DNA of 51,291 nucleotides. It comes from an uncultured Sphingomonas sp. GTDB lineage: Bacteria > Pseudomonadota > Alphaproteobacteria > Sphingomonadales > Sphingomonadaceae. The stretch is taken from the NCBI GenBank assembly GCA_913776255.1, contig CAJYLV010000005.1, positions 1 through 51,291 of the forward strand, read 5' to 3'. Numbering within the stretch: position 1 is the stretch's first letter; each line of letters begins with the position of its first letter. Of this stretch, positions 5,729-20,061 are shown piece after piece. The notes beneath the pieces are model-generated. The model worked only from the letters and a program-made list of their open reading frames with translations. It was not told where the DNA came from and made no database searches. The position numbers and the translations under genes were made by a program.

Positions 5729-6223
5729 TCACCCTCCTTCCGGCTCGGGATAGCCGATCGCGACGATCTCATACTCCCGCTCGCCCGCCGGCAGCATGAC
5801 GCGCCGCAGATCGCCGACCGCCGCGCCGCGCAGGGCCCTCGCGAGCGGCGCGTTCCAGCCGACGCGACCGGCGCCCGCCTCGGCTTCGTCGTCGCCGACC
5901 AGCGTCAGCACGCGCTGGTTGTCGTCCTCGTCGGCGATCGTCACCGTCGCGCCGAACCACACGCGCGTGCGGTCCTGCTGCTGCGCGGGATCGACGACCC
6001 TGGCGGCCTTCATCCGCTTCGACAGCCAGCCGAGCCGCCGGTCGATCTCGCGCAGCTTCTTGCGGCCGTAGATATAGTCGCCGTTCTCGGAGCGGTCGCC
6101 ATTGCCCGCCGCCCAGCTGATCGTCTCGACCAGTGCCGGGCGTTCGGTGGCGAAGAGCTGCTCGTACTCTGCGCGCAGCTTCGCATAGCCGGCCGGCGTC
6201 ATGTAATTGGGACGCTCGGTCAT
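5729..6223 (-). CDS. greB: transcription elongation factor GreB-like
   Basis: 164-residue Gre factor. It binds the RNA polymerase secondary channel and stimulates cleavage of backtracked transcripts. The N-terminal coiled coil carries the acidic-tip region DRSENGDYIYGRKK and the GreB-type LREIDRRLGWL; the C-terminal FKBP-like domain includes VWFGATVTI and residues about 85-160. I chose ATG 6223: it overlaps the slt stop by four bases (ATGA) and gives the usual GreB length. It is followed by a palindrome that may reduce read-through to the NYN gene. Confidence 0.92.
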   Translation of the reverse strand: MTERPNYMTPAGYAKLRAEYEQLFATERPALVETISWAAGNGDRSENGDYIYGRKKLREIDRRLGWLSKRMKAARVVDPAQQQDRTRVWFGATVTIADEDDNQRVLTLVGDDEAEAGAGRVGWNAPLARALRGAAVGDLRRVMLPAGEREYEIVAIGYPEPEGG

Positions 6224-8196
6224 CCGCCGCGCGACCGCCCGAGATACCAGCTGAGGTTGTTCGGTCCGCGGCTCTTCGCCCGCGCCGGGTTCATCAGGTC
6301 GTAAACGACCGCATTCTCCAGCACCCGCTGGACGTAGTTGCGCGTCTCGCCGAACGGGATCGCCTCGACCCAGTCGACCGCATCGACCGCGCCGGTACGC
6401 GGGTCGCCGTTGGCGCGCAGCCATTTGTTCACGTTCCCCGGCCCGGCGTTATAGGCGGCGATCGCCAGCGGATAGCTGCCATAAAGCGCAAAGATCCGCT
6501 GGAAATAGCTCGAACCGAGCTGGATGTTGTAATTGGTGTCGCTGGTCAGCCGCAGCGGATCATACCCGAGCCCGAGCTTGCCGGCCTGTTCGCGCGCGGT
6601 GCCGGGCATCAGCTGCATCAGCCCGCTCGCCCCGACCGGGCTGCGCGCCATGCGGTCGAACTGGCTCTCCTGCCGCGCGACCGCGTGGATCATCGGCCAT
6701 TCCGCCTCATAGCCGCTCGGCACCGCGACGGTCGGGAAGCCGTTGGCGCTATATTCGGTCAGCCCGTTCTGCATCGCGCTGCGCCCGAGCAGCACGCCGA
6801 GATCGGGGCGGCCGAGCGCGCGCGACAATTCGTCGGCCAGATAATGGTCGGTGTCGCTGGTCGCGTCGGCGGCGATCTGCTTCACGAACGCGGTCTGGTC
6901 CTGATATTGCCCGGCCTGTCCGAGGAACTGCGCCGCGCGCACCACCTCGCGCCCGTAGAAAGCCGAGCGTGCGGTCGCGGCGATCACCGGCGTCGGCGGG
7001 GCCGGGGGTGCGGTGAGCGGGCGGCGGAGATGCTCGATCGCCAATTGCCCGTAATATTGGTCGCGATAGCCGGCGGTGCGCTCGAACAAGGCGTTGGCGT
7101 CGGGCTGGCGCGCCTGCTCGGCGGTGCGCGCCGCCCAGTACAGCCCCTTGGCGCGCGTCTGCGGCGACTGGCTGCCGAGCCCGTAGCGCTCGAACATCGC
7201 GCGCGCGTCTGCCGGCCGCCCGAGCTTGAGCGCCGCCTGACCCGCCAGCCACGCCAGCGAGGTATAATCGTCGCGCTCGCCATAGGGCTTGGTCGAGACG
7301 TCGGTGCCGGCGGGATAGGCGTCGTCGATCTGCCGCGCGATGTCATAGGCGGTCTGCCACTGGCCGTCCGCCGCCGCCGCGCGCGCATTGACCAGCAGCG
7401 CCTCGTAGAATTTCTCGACATTGCCCGGCCGCGTCATGCCGGTGCGGGTGCGCGCCAGCCAGCCGCGCGCGCTGGGGCTCGCCCCCGAATTGCGCAGCCA
7501 CATCGCCTTGTCGGCGATGTAGCCGGCATCGCTGGCGCCGATCGCATCATAGCTGGCGGCGAGCGCCGAGGCGTTCTCGGCATTGCTGCGGAACGCCAGC
7601 CGTGCGGTGAACAACGGACGCGCGGCCGCGCTGGTATAAGCGAGCATCCGCTGCGCGCTGCTCGTCGCGCCCTGCCACAGCAACGCGTCGGTGCGCGCGT
7701 CATGGTCGGCGGGAGACAGCGCGCTGGCGAACTGCGTCAGCACGGTCGATTCGTCCTGCGGTGACAAGGCGCCGAGCCGCCAGCCGGTGCGCGCTGCTTC
7801 CTGTGCGTCCACCGTCGCGCCGGTCGCCTGATAGGCGCGCGCACAGGCGATCCAGCCCGCCGCGGTCAACGGCTTCCAGCGGCGGCAGAACGCCGCGACG
7901 CTGGTCACCGGCGTGTTCGGGTCGGTCGCCGCCTTGCGCTCCAGCGTGCGCCGGAACCCGGCCTCGCCCGGCCAGCCGGGGTGGGCGCTGATGAACGAGA
8001 AATAGCTGTCGAACGGCAGCGCGTCGGTCTGTTGCAGCGCTTTCCACTGCGCGACCGGCTGTGCCATGCCGGGCAGCGGGGCTGTCGCGACCGGGGCCTG
8101 CACCGGCTGGATCGCGGGCACCGCGCCATATTGCCCGGCGACCACCGCCAGGGTTCCTGCTGCTGCAACGAAAAGGATCAACGCACCCGCCTTCAC
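6220..8196 (-). CDS. slt: soluble lytic murein transglycosylase (Slt70-like)
   Basis: 658-residue periplasmic enzyme that cleaves peptidoglycan glycan strands to 1,6-anhydro products. A signal or anchor segment spans residues 1-20. A long alpha-helical superhelical region (about 60-480) is followed by the GEWL-like catalytic domain: Glu in ARQESQFD, then SPVGASGLMQLMPGTA and AYNAGPGNVNKW. The start is GTG at 8196 with no clear Shine-Dalgarno sequence. Codons 1-2 lie inside a 124-bp segment that is repeated 2650 bp away upstream of dapA. In that second copy the corresponding start codon reads ACG. greB overlaps its 3' end, so the two are probably co-transcribed. Confidence 0.93.
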   Translation of the reverse strand: MKAGALILFVAAAGTLAVVAGQYGAVPAIQPVQAPVATAPLPGMAQPVAQWKALQQTDALPFDSYFSFISAHPGWPGEAGFRRTLERKAATDPNTPVTSVAAFCRRWKPLTAAGWIACARAYQATGATVDAQEAARTGWRLGALSPQDESTVLTQFASALSPADHDARTDALLWQGATSSAQRMLAYTSAAARPLFTARLAFRSNAENASALAASYDAIGASDAGYIADKAMWLRNSGASPSARGWLARTRTGMTRPGNVEKFYEALLVNARAAAADGQWQTAYDIARQIDDAYPAGTDVSTKPYGERDDYTSLAWLAGQAALKLGRPADARAMFERYGLGSQSPQTRAKGLYWAARTAEQARQPDANALFERTAGYRDQYYGQLAIEHLRRPLTAPPAPPTPVIAATARSAFYGREVVRAAQFLGQAGQYQDQTAFVKQIAADATSDTDHYLADELSRALGRPDLGVLLGRSAMQNGLTEYSANGFPTVAVPSGYEAEWPMIHAVARQESQFDRMARSPVGASGLMQLMPGTAREQAGKLGLGYDPLRLTSDTNYNIQLGSSYFQRIFALYGSYPLAIAAYNAGPGNVNKWLRANGDPRTGAVDAVDWVEAIPFGETRNYVQRVLENAVVYDLMNPARAKSRGPNNLSWYLGRSRGG

Positions 8197-8314
8197 TGTT
8201 TTTGACCGACGCCCGTGGTGGACAGCATAGCAGCCCTAGCCGTATCTGCGCTGAACGGCGTCCCCCAAACGCGTGTCAGGAGCAAATTCGTCACATATTC
8301 TCAGGTTCCATCCC
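8191..8314. repeat. left copy of 124-bp direct repeat (slt-dapA divergent promoter segment)
   Basis: Matches 10841-10964 at 118 of 124 positions with no gaps. It covers slt codons 1-2, the intergenic region, the dapA ribosome site AGGAG (8278-8282) and what would be the first codons of dapA. The dapA start is ATA here (8295-8297) instead of ATG, and the dapA-like sequence diverges after 8314. This copy supplies the slt promoter. Confidence 0.93.
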
Positions 8315-8551
8315 GGCAACTTTCCGGCGTCGCGTGTATCTGCCAGAGCATGAGATTTCGGCGACCGGCTGGCCTTGCTCCAAACTGCGAAATGCACGAA
8401 GCGCCGCTTCATTCATTGAATTACCTGAGAATCTGTAGAGCTTGATATCCGGATTCCGTAATCAGCAATGGCAGCGGTTCCTGGCACGCCATGACCAGTC
8501 GACGTCTCGGTCACCTGTGCCGGACTTATTCTGCCATAGGCTACCAGCCTA

Positions 8552-9625
8552 TCAACCATACTCAAAAATGACTGCGATGCCGTCGGCACCGGGGCCGCCA
8601 GGGAACCCGGATTGTCCAGCGATGGCTGATGCTCCGCCGCCGCCGGCCCCGGGCGCTGTGCCAGGGAGCCCCGCGCTCCCACCGCCGCCTTTCCCGCCAC
8701 CACCAAACAGCGATGCTCCGCCGTCGCCGGCGTCGACTATCGTCAGTGCTAGCGCCAAACCCGCCGTGCCACTGGCGCCGCAAGCTCCAAAGATGCTTGC
8801 TCCCGTCGGTGCAGCCGATGGTCCTCCTCAATCCCAAAGGAGCGGAGGTGGGTAGGGGGCACTTCCATTGCCTGCTGTTCCACCCGGCGCCAATATAAGG
8901 TCCCCAAATCGCGTGGTGCCTCCGGCGTTTCCGGATAAGCCGTTGGACGAACTCGATGCGCCGCCCTTTCCAACTTCGATCTCCACGCCATTGAAGCCCG
9001 CGTCTAATACTGCCTCGGCATACGATCCTGCTCCGCCTCCGCTTGCACAAGAGACTTCGCTTCCGGATGTTGCTGAGCAATTGCCACCGCTGCCGCCACC
9101 CCCGACCAATCGGACATATATACGCTTGGTGCCCGAGGTGGGGAGATAAGTTGCGCTTCGGGTGAATGACTGCACGCCGATCAAACCTCCGCCCGCCGAC
9201 GCGATGAAACATCTTTCGTCAGTGATATGTAAATCATCGATGGCTAACTGACCGACTCTACGCAGAATCTGTGCAACAGGTATCCATCCACTCGGTATAT
9301 CGGGTGGGGAAGGATTTGCGGCTTCTATGCCCACTAAGATTGTCAATCTACCAGTCTTGATGTTTACGACTGCTCTGTCAACACGCGATAGAGTTTTTGG
9401 AGGTGGAATGGGATCACTTAGCTGGCATGGTACTTCCAGTAATAAGCCGTCGCTGAAAAAAGACCCTGCATCAATCTCGATCCTGGTTGAGGGAGGGCGG
9501 GTTTGATGAGGCGCGAATGCGGCGACGACGCGGGACATTACATCAATGTTTCCAGCGATGGTTGGCAGTGCACCGCCGCTGGTGACGTCAGAAAAGGTGG
9601 CTTGCCCAAAGGTGTGCACGCTCAT
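8552..9625 (-). pseudogene. phage tail-fibre-like glycine-rich protein, interrupted by in-frame TGA
   Basis: Starts at ATG 9625 with GGAG six bases upstream. The first 265 residues include a phage-type baseplate or fibre region (RVDRAVVNIKTGRL, ITDERCFIASAGGGLIGVQ) and then the glycine-rich fibre tip (FTRSATYLPTSGTKRIYVR, LVGGGGSGG). TGA at 8830-8828 interrupts it. The same frame continues without a shift for about 90 codons of Gly/Ala-rich sequence ending PGADGIAVIFEYG at 8552, which is the normal C-terminus of such fibres. Intact length would be about 357 residues. It is either a recent nonsense mutation or a read-through protein. The segment just before the stop (APYPPPLLWD) fits the pattern poorly, so paired frameshifts are also possible. 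Confidence 0.75.
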
Positions 9626-9888
9626 ACTGCTCTCCTTCTTAGAGGCTATCTCCCATTCATTATAGTAAAACCTTTATACCTATTTTGCTGGGCGCCACTT
9701 TGACGCATAGATTAGCGGAATGTAGTGGCAGGATACTACAAGAAAAAGATTAATTTTAACGCATTTGTTTCCGCCATGCTTCTCAGTGAATCTGGTGCTT
9801 GCGGCCAGCATTGTAGGTCAGCTTGGCGTAAAATCATCTATAAATATCATGGCGACGGTCTGTGTCGTCGGCTGAAGGAAGCCGCAGC

Positions 9889-10827
9889 ATGGCATTTGGA
9901 GAATTTATAGAGCCTTTCACCGTGCAAGCTGATATCGATCAACTGATCCAAGACGTGCAACGATTTACCGGAAGCCGCTTCCGCGCCGCTTATAGTGCTC
10001 AAAGCCTCCTTGGGCGGAATCGCATTTTCGACCGAATCGTGGCGCGCTCGCAGCAGGTCGACTTGCCGTGCGAGGACCAGTGTAGTCCGCTTTACTATTT
10101 CGATCTGGTACGGGCGCTGCGCGACTTTGCCGGCCAATATGACCAAGTCATCGAGGTCGGCACCTTCCTGGGTGGCTCAACTGCCTTCCTCGCCGGCTGC
10201 ATCGAACCCTTCGACTTTGATCTCGATCTGGTCGACATCTATCCTCCCTATCTTCGCTTCGCCTATGAGCGCGTACGGCGGCTGTACCCAGAGGCGGCGA
10301 AGCGCATCCGGTTGTTCCATGGTGATCTGGCCAGTTATGTACAGAACGTTATGCTGCCGGGCAGCAGTACCCGGTCGATTGTTCATCACGATGCCGCTCA
10401 TGAATTCTCACGCGTTGTAAAGGATCTGGCGTCGCTGTCTTTTGTGCAGGAAGATCTCGTTGCGATTATCGCGCAGGACACCAATTTGCGCGGTGCGCAC
10501 CGCTACATGAACTTCGTCGATCTGGCGTTACAGGCAGTGTTTGGTTCCGGCATGAGTTTCGCACCGATTGGTCCGGTTCACCCGCATAGCAGCGCGCCCG
10601 ACCAATATTTCGGCAATTACGTGACCGGTGGTTTGCCGGAGGGCATGGTCTTGCCGATGGAGGCGAACCGCTTCGTCTATCCGCATCCGACCCATCAAAT
10701 AGCGGACTTCATGGCCACCAATGCGGAGATTGCGTCGACGCTTGCCCAACTCGACGAGCCGGTCTGGAGCAACGAAGCCTCTGCCGGCCAAAGCGCCGAT
10801 CCGATCCTGGCACGATCCTCTCACTAG
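9889..10827 (+). CDS. class I SAM-dependent methyltransferase (Methyltransf_24-like)
   Basis: 312 residues. SAM-binding motif I is visible as QVIEVGTFLGGSTAFLAG, followed by the acidic strand-2 motif DLDLVDIYPPY, LFHGDL, and the family-typical IVHHDAAHEFSRVVKDL (the position of the ID-x-D-H-x-Y block in sugar and small-molecule O-methyltransferases). Substrate is unknown. I chose ATG 9889, with GAAGGAA nine bases upstream; a GTG at 9862 is less likely. It lies in the foreign module, divergent from the tail-fibre-like gene, and ends just before the right-hand direct repeat. Its base composition is less GC-rich than that of the chromosomal genes. Confidence 0.8.
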   Translation: MAFGEFIEPFTVQADIDQLIQDVQRFTGSRFRAAYSAQSLLGRNRIFDRIVARSQQVDLPCEDQCSPLYYFDLVRALRDFAGQYDQVIEVGTFLGGSTAFLAGCIEPFDFDLDLVDIYPPYLRFAYERVRRLYPEAAKRIRLFHGDLASYVQNVMLPGSSTRSIVHHDAAHEFSRVVKDLASLSFVQEDLVAIIAQDTNLRGAHRYMNFVDLALQAVFGSGMSFAPIGPVHPHSSAPDQYFGNYVTGGLPEGMVLPMEANRFVYPHPTHQIADFMATNAEIASTLAQLDEPVWSNEASAGQSADPILARSSH

Positions 10828-10840
10828 CGGGGAGAGCCGA

Positions 10841-10964
10841 CTTCGTTGTTCTTGTCCGACGCCCGTGGTGGACAGCATAGCAGCCCTAGCCGTATCTGCG
10901 CTGAACGGCGTCCCCCAAACGCGCGTCAGGAGCAAATTCGTCACATGTTCTCAGGTTCCATCCC
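10841..10964. repeat. right copy of 124-bp direct repeat (slt-dapA divergent promoter segment)
   Basis: Partner of 8191-8314. It retains AGGAG (10928-10932) and the dapA start ATG (10945-10947). The slt start codon position (10846-10844, minus strand) reads ACG and is no longer a GTG. Differences from the left copy are at 10845, 10846, 10851, 10855, 10924 and 10947. This copy supplies the dapA promoter. Confidence 0.93.
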
Positions 10965-11826
10965 CGCTTTGGTCACGCCGTTCGACGCGCAGGGTGATTT
11001 CGTCGAGTCGGCGTACCGCAATCTGGTCGAGTGGCAGATCGCCGAGGGCTCGTCCGCGCTGGTGCCGTGCGGCACCACCGGCGAGGCGGCGACGCTGACC
11101 AAGGAGGAGCAGTTCGCGATCGTCCGCGTCTGCGTCGATCAGGCGAAGGGCCGCGTGCCGGTGATCGCCGGGGCGGGATCAAACGATACGCGCGTCGCCG
11201 CCGCCAACCTGCACGCCGCGCACGAGGCGGGGGCGAATGCCGCGCTGATGGTGCCGCCTTATTACAACCGCCCCTCGCAGGAGGGCATCTATCGCCATTT
11301 CGAGGCCCTCGCCGCTTTCACGCCCTTACCCATCGTATTGTATAACGTGCCGGCGCGGACCGTGACCGACATCCAGCCGGAAACGCTGATCCGCATCGTG
11401 GCGGCGTTCCCGAAGGTGTTCATCGCGGTCAAGGACGCCTCGGGCGTGCTGACCCGCGTGACGCAGCACCGCGCCGGTCTGGGCGCGGACTTCTGTCAGC
11501 TGTCGGGCAATGACGACCTCGGGCTCGCCTTCAACGCCACCGGCGGTGTGGGTTGTATCTCGGTGACCGCCAATGTCGCGCCGCGGCTGTGCGCCGATTT
11601 CCAGCGTGCCTGCGCCGCGGGCGACTATGCGGCGGCGCGCGACCTCCACGACCGGCTGTTCGCGCTCCACACGTCGCTGTTCACCGACGCCTCGCCCGGC
11701 CCGGTCAAATATGCGATGACCAGGGTGCGACCCGGCTTCCCCGATGGCCTGCGCCTGCCCATGACCCGGCCGTCCGAGGCGAGCCGCGCGGCAGTCGACG
11801 CCGGGCTCGAACGCGCGGGGCTGTGA
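10945..11826 (+). CDS. dapA: 4-hydroxy-tetrahydrodipicolinate synthase
   Basis: 293-residue cytosolic TIM-barrel aldolase of lysine/diaminopimelate synthesis; it condenses pyruvate with aspartate semialdehyde. Visible motifs: the N-terminal GSIPALVTPF, GTTGEAATL, the tyrosine motif in PYYNRPSQEGIYRHF and IVLYNVPARTV, and the Schiff-base lysine in FIAVKDASG. The start at ATG 10945 gives the normal family length, with AGGAG 12 bases upstream. Its first seven codons and whole leader are duplicated 2650 bp upstream beside slt. A strong palindrome follows the stop by 11 bases. Confidence 0.96.
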   Translation: MFSGSIPALVTPFDAQGDFVESAYRNLVEWQIAEGSSALVPCGTTGEAATLTKEEQFAIVRVCVDQAKGRVPVIAGAGSNDTRVAAANLHAAHEAGANAALMVPPYYNRPSQEGIYRHFEALAAFTPLPIVLYNVPARTVTDIQPETLIRIVAAFPKVFIAVKDASGVLTRVTQHRAGLGADFCQLSGNDDLGLAFNATGGVGCISVTANVAPRLCADFQRACAAGDYAAARDLHDRLFALHTSLFTDASPGPVKYAMTRVRPGFPDGLRLPMTRPSEASRAAVDAGLERAGL

Positions 11827-11837
11827 CGTGACACTTC

Positions 11838-11914
11838 CGTCATTGCGAGCGCAGCGAAGCAATCCAGGGCGTCCTGGTCCGGCCCTGGATTGCTTCGCTT
11901 CGCTCGCAATGACG
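11838..11914. repeat. 33-bp palindrome, CATTGCGAGCG family, copy A
   Basis: Arms 11838-11870 and 11882-11914 pair with one mismatch around an 11-base loop. It lies 11 bases after the dapA stop and could act as a terminator or 3' stabiliser. Related copies are at 20062, 34834 and 47227. Confidence 0.9.
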
Positions 11915-20052: not shown

Positions 20053-20061
20053 TCCAGCCGC

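Follow-up and report, generated by a model that had tools for sequence, protein, structure and literature searches.

Elements that restore the 5′ end of the gene into which they insert, such as SpyCI at mutL, encode a site-specific recombinase. Another class, insertion with long target duplication, reportedly goes back to the comparison by Nobusato et al. (2000) of Helicobacter pylori strains 26695 and J99. As far as the available text of the relevant papers goes, this type emerged from comparing two H. pylori strains and is often linked to restriction-modification genes (PMC1643837, PMC4978471, PMC3031569). The microcin H47 (MccH47) island of Escherichia coli, in the accessible parts of its reports, is recombinase-less and is flanked by long direct repeats that match imperfectly but contain several identical stretches, both excision and integration having been detected (PMC3191183, PMC5426353). 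For transposed genes of Arabidopsis, the portion available of one study proposes that a repeat-bounded gene circularises and is inserted where a target sequence matches, the flanks being altered when the repeats differ slightly (PMC2869330). Here we describe a 2,650-nt insertion between the divergent genes slt and dapA of an uncultured Sphingomonas sp. (contig CAJYLV010000005.1 of assembly GCA_913776255.1; the whole stretch analysed, of 51,291 nt, is called the window). The inserted module, which carries a phage-tail-fibre-like gene and a putative methyltransferase gene, lies between two copies of the slt-dapA control region. Among the papers listed by a literature search (6 of 7 matches) none, to judge by title, concerned an slt-dapA insertion in Sphingomonas.

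The doubled control region and the empty site

Positions 8191-8314 and 10841-10964 agree without gaps at 118 of 124 positions (6 mismatches) at an offset of 2650, and the two copies have complementary start codons; both points had been made in a first-pass annotation and held on recounting. Self-BLAST of the window extends the direct repeat to 131 positions, of which 123 are identical (94%, E 6e-52). The features concerned are listed here, G083 being the relative with the best dapA match.

6220..8196, minus strand: slt, lytic transglycosylase (SLT domain, Pfam PF01464, E 5e-25), GTG start intact; 98% identical protein in G083
8187..8317: left control-region copy, dapA start position ATA at 8295-8297; direct repeat, 123/131 against 10837-10967
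8206..8273: 68-bp identical core of the left copy, defined by run lengths; the likely crossover zone, if a crossover took place
10837..10967: right control-region copy, slt start position ACG at 10844-10846, dapA ATG intact
10856..10923: 68-bp identical core of the right copy, defined by run lengths
10945..11826, plus strand: dapA, dihydrodipicolinate synthase (PF00701, E 4e-79); 96% identical protein in G083

The copies share three identical runs of at least 8 nt, of 68, 22 and 17 nt (8206-8273, 8275-8296 and 8298-8314 in the left copy), and all mismatches between them fall outside the 68-bp core. The left copy retains the GTG of slt, read leftward from 8196, and the right copy the ATG of dapA at 10945-10947; the two dead starts, ACG and ATA, both lie on the side facing the module. 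That each of the divergent genes keeps a full promoter after the insertion, as the annotation had proposed, was borne out.

The duplication ends sharply on the right, and the right copy has a blurred left edge, with 12 of 17 positions alike at -106 to -90 from the dapA start. This likeness is above chance: none of 2473 module windows reaches 12/17 for that edge, and the sole place in the whole window to do so is the right copy itself. To the left of the core the left copy equals G083 exactly, the right copy differing at 5 of these 17 positions, and within the core all 68 positions agree among the left copy, the right copy and the empty site. Divergence at this edge is far higher than in the rest of the repeat, and the decay of a spare start is just one way to read it.

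Relatives were sought among 295 genomes of the genus, dapA being found in 292 and slt in 289, and slt-dapA distances were read for the 60 ranked highest by dapA. The two genes stand head to head in all 60, separated by 88-280 nt, the larger distances probably reflecting an unaligned slt N-terminus. G083 has a single control-region copy with both starts intact. The distance in the present genome, 2,748 nt, equals the 98 nt of G083 plus 2,650, and this added length comprises one 131-nt copy and the 2,519 nt of module that separate the two copies. By this comparison of sequences the 2,650 extra bases are an insertion, as the annotation had inferred, and empty sites bearing both starts, which it had proposed to look for, exist in relatives. 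It had also proposed to look for strains with other cargo; no cargo other than the present module was seen at slt-dapA in the 60 relatives.

Within the control region, a 22-nt stretch (8236-8257 and 10886-10907) is kept in relatives where its surroundings drift, and possibly represents overlapping promoters or a regulator site. Taken as a motif with at most 2 mismatches, it occurs in 19 of the 295 genomes; the 18 others have a single occurrence each, and this genome alone has two.

Origin of the insertion

The reading that we favour, tentatively and as nearly a balanced call, is that the insertion entered through a single crossover as a small DNA ring that had no integrase of its own and brought along an imperfect version of the control region. 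The slt-dapA copy on the ring would already have been defective at both starts, and the crossover, which we infer to have fallen inside the 68-bp core and to have used host recombination as its machinery, would have joined this ring to an intact chromosomal site. The left copy would then be composed of chromosome on the slt side, core and ring, and the right copy of ring, core and chromosome on the dapA side, with the consequence that slt and dapA each keep their own start and promoter while both dead starts face the module. As to how the ring first captured a host segment, imprecise excision from an earlier insertion of like kind would be the simplest guess.

The defects lie in blocks on either side of the 68-bp core, so that one crossover with a ring carrying two dead starts suffices to explain them. 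The first-pass annotation had suggested a passenger brought in when a circular molecule recombined, which fits the ring reading, but also that the spare starts decayed or were selected away after insertion, which is not needed. Drift of the two module-facing halves would also explain the start defects, since only these halves are free to drift. The annotation had further reported that no integrase is present, and accordingly no recombinase, integrase or transposase family was matched in the 18 open reading frames (ORFs) of at least 60 amino acids touching the module, all scanned against Pfam and the main ones also against PHROGs and NCBIfam. Its likening of the module to elements that restore the 5′ end of the gene they enter holds only as an analogy, since such elements carry a recombinase. 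Nor does the module resemble a transposon or composite transposon: no transposase family was matched, no terminal inverted repeats were found, and the duplication measures 110-131 bp instead of being a short target duplication.

A hint of the ring comes from P0001 and P0068, the proteins to which the two cargo products are most closely related, both of which list 2,680 nt as their longest contig. P0001 is on one contig with the source label ‘lgn’, which we read as Logan, and P0068 is on three, with no source shown. Logan, in the available part of its description, uses k = 31 and recognises and trims circular contigs by a 30-mer end repeat (PMC12424806). A closed ring of 2,650 nt would therefore print as 2,680 nt; an integrated copy with a spacing of 2,650, breaking at a shared run m, prints by arithmetic 2,710 - m, at most 2,679 nt. 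The match to the base is striking.

Allele patterns within the copies bear on the same question. The left copy has the bases of G083 at -21 and +20 and the right copy those of G297, G303 and G168, which suggests two haplotypes rather than one freshly doubled sequence. Divergence on the module-facing sides is also unequal, 5 of 17 positions being changed at the edge of the right copy as compared to 1 of 44 in the left half that is not shared with the right copy (Fisher p 0.005; when the left half is counted against the right copy, 3 of 44 and p 0.03). Small as the numbers are, such inequality would be odd if both module-facing halves had begun drifting together.

Several observations weigh against the ring. 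G125 has the left base at -21 and the right base at +20 and, since it mixes the alleles, these sites define no clean haplotypes. Both copies have A at position -2, a base that none of 8 aligned relatives has there; this suggests a recent common origin and favours either duplication within the lineage or a ring that arose in the same species. The 2,680-nt contig enters the argument through its listed length, and the hint that the cargo pair sits together on one such contig derives from the equality of the listed lengths. A ring would have no evident means of replicating itself: searches of the module gave no replication (Rep) family, neither iterons nor tandem repeats, and no strict match to a DnaA box, although a helper could have replicated it. 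Neither the ring nor its junction was found in viral contigs, plasmids, phages or genome contigs, in searches that return close matches only and possibly leave this genome outside. Finally, cargo homologues across the genus (19 methyltransferase and 9 fibre loci, with mechanical ORFs judged by eye) have several differing neighbourhoods, some of them recurring, with no doubled control region recognised. The -21 and +20 alleles, the unequal divergence and the shared A at -2 would all be accommodated by a ring that came from within the species.

Somewhat unlikely, by our assessment, is a one-step insertion with long target duplication, in which foreign DNA would have entered at a staggered break or by template switching, some 110-131 bp of target being copied and the module-facing halves drifting afterwards. 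The pattern is that seen in H. pylori, to the extent that the accessible text of the reports describes it (PMC1643837, PMC3031569); the A at -2 in both copies fits doubling inside the lineage, and the sharp right edge of the duplication is in keeping with it. However, the alleles at -21 and +20 group with different relatives, divergence is unequal between the two drifting halves, and no reason is given for a 2,680-nt contig. We consider rather improbable an extension of the ring reading, namely that a free 2,650-nt ring with no replication or recombination gene exists in this Sphingomonas clade, carrying the fibre and methyltransferase genes, using a stolen slt-dapA promoter with both starts silenced as its landing site and being inserted and released by host recombination alone, slt and dapA remaining intact throughout.

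Fusion during assembly is decidedly unlikely. A free ring sharing the 68-bp core would have been threaded into slt-dapA by the assembler, the true chromosome having the empty site. The source assembly is a draft of 68 contigs and 79% completeness, threading through the shared core would give the observed block pattern, and 2,680 nt fits a free ring; yet the fusion requires, by arithmetic, that the k-mer of the last assembly round did not exceed 68, and a real crossover yields the identical arrangement. Highly improbable is a site-specific element with the repeat as attL and attR and a recombinase lost or acting from elsewhere in the genome for, although excision and integration are known for a small E. 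coli island that has long imperfect repeats and lacks a recombinase gene (in the available text of PMC3191183 and PMC5426353), the shared segment here is clade-specific, being single in the other 18 of the 19 genomes (of 295) with the motif and so too local for a travelling att site, and no other cargo occupies the site in 60 relatives.

Genes of the inserted module

The GC content of the module is 56%, compared to 69% around it, and none of 462 windows of the same size elsewhere in the window is as low. Its features are as follows.

8552..9625, minus strand: phage-tail-fibre-like, glycine-rich gene, 357-codon frame with an in-frame stop at codon 266 (8828-8830)
9626..9888: AT-rich spacer from which the two cargo genes diverge; its single promoter-like match is at chance level; no repeats found
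9889..10827, plus strand: gene for a 312-amino-acid putative protein of class I S-adenosylmethionine (SAM) methyltransferase fold; weak PF13578 match, 25.5 bits against a cut-off of 26.3

The fibre gene product is 98% identical to its intact relative P0001 (357 residues), with a single stop inside the window copy; a frameshift suspected from the ORF list was ruled out, there being one in-frame stop and no indel. The gene being broken in this genome, the module looks like a decaying passenger. Matches to PHROG tail families reach E 9e-33, and residues 1-151 show 30-33% identity to 14 phage records (from Acinetobacter, Escherichia and Pseudomonas phages), whose annotation is tail fibre in some cases and merely hypothetical in others. 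A predicted model of P0001 (predicted local distance difference test score, pLDDT, 79.5; predicted template modelling score, pTM, 0.56) matches the fibre of cyanophage Pam3 (E 1.5e-6, template modelling (TM) score 0.42 of the query) and the Bxb1 tail tip, with E values from 1e-6 to 4e-5. The cell surface or phages would be the place of action of such cargo, a fibre-like protein together with a methyltransferase.

Evidence for the methyltransferase is weaker. PF13578 is listed for many of its homologues, and a low-confidence model (pLDDT 69.6) of its relative P0068, from which it differs at one residue, matches O-methyltransferases with E 5e-5; a class I methyltransferase fold is thereby weakly indicated. 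A C-terminal tail of some 16 residues, directly before the right control-region copy, is mostly absent from 11 aligned homologues. Neither cargo alignment matched a solved structure by sequence at E 0.01, and Rfam gave no match in 8000-11200.

Among the 294 other genomes of the genus, fibre-gene homologues are present in 10 and methyltransferase homologues in 22, those in G210 and G171 being short weak matches only. A prophage origin of the module was rejected: the fibre gene has relatives in the 14 phage records and in viral contigs, and a methyltransferase relative occurs in none of the 80 best viral loci. At the nine fibre loci of the genus (L131-L134 and L136-L140) no prophage was evident, as judged from ORF starts only, and chromosomal tail-fibre-like genes of this kind are possible borrowed fibres. 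A scan of eight proteins of these loci and P0001 revealed one transposase, adjoining the fibre-like gene in L140. In L133, L134 and L136 the fibre-like gene adjoins a SPASM-domain protein, with a radical-SAM match in two of the three: another modifying enzyme next to a fibre, as with the methyltransferase here. A DNA methylase gene adjoins the fibre gene in L131 and lies near it in L133.

No cargo homologue at slt-dapA was recognised in the 19 methyltransferase and 9 fibre loci. The same flanking gene stands beside the methyltransferase in L075, L099, L101 and L103, and another is near it in L104, L106, L107 and L112. Distant direct repeats of at least 40 nt occur in 8 of 30 cargo-homologue loci, and the pair brackets the cargo gene in four. 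Three of these, L104, L111 and L112, were considered as a second doubled region and are read as palindromic intergenic repeats; the pair in L132 is 47 nt long and 81% alike. In G244 both cargo genes are at contig ends, but a tail-to-tail copy of the ring was discarded, BLAST giving no match between the ends and the homologues being distant. In G004, dapA starts 152 nt into a 3.6-kb contig.

Elsewhere in the window, a repeat family of about 80 nt (11838-11914, with copies near 20061, 34834 and 47225) contains an almost perfect 33-nt inverted repeat, its members being 78-92% alike. Related stretches also match in G083, and we read the family as repetitive extragenic palindromic (REP)-like.

Comparison with known systems

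As in the H. pylori type of insertion with long target duplication, at least as the text available presents it, the inserted genes lie between long direct copies of the target, which here is single at the empty site and doubled around an insert lacking any matched transposase or integrase family. Restriction-modification cargo, frequent although not obligatory in that type, is replaced here by a fibre-like gene and a protein of putative O-methyltransferase-like fold. Unlike in the H. pylori cases, as there described, the duplicated segment here takes in an entire divergent promoter including both start positions, and there are hints of a ring form. The MccH47 island, in the published portions at hand, shares with this module the absence of a recombinase gene and the extensive imperfect direct repeats (here with runs of 68, 22 and 17 nt); it is 13 kb in length and has a known function, whereas the present module is 2.65 kb and its putative mobility is read from sequence alone. 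The scheme of circle and reinsertion proposed for Arabidopsis, in outline, is like the ring route considered here, although it concerns plant nuclear genes and not bacterial cargo. As with elements of the SpyCI type, the target gene keeps promoter and start, but those elements have their own recombinase and none was matched here.

The locus offers a clean case, in which the empty site is known, the added length is exact to the base, and new genes have entered a conserved divergent promoter with neither gene broken. If the ring is real, small gene cassettes could move between strains by host recombination only, which bears on an open question that recombinase-less islands raise and that insertions with long target duplication raise as well. 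The arrangement as a whole belongs to a published pattern: ordinary in kind, it is unusual in detail, in the divergent-promoter target that harms neither gene, in the cargo and in the hint of a ring.

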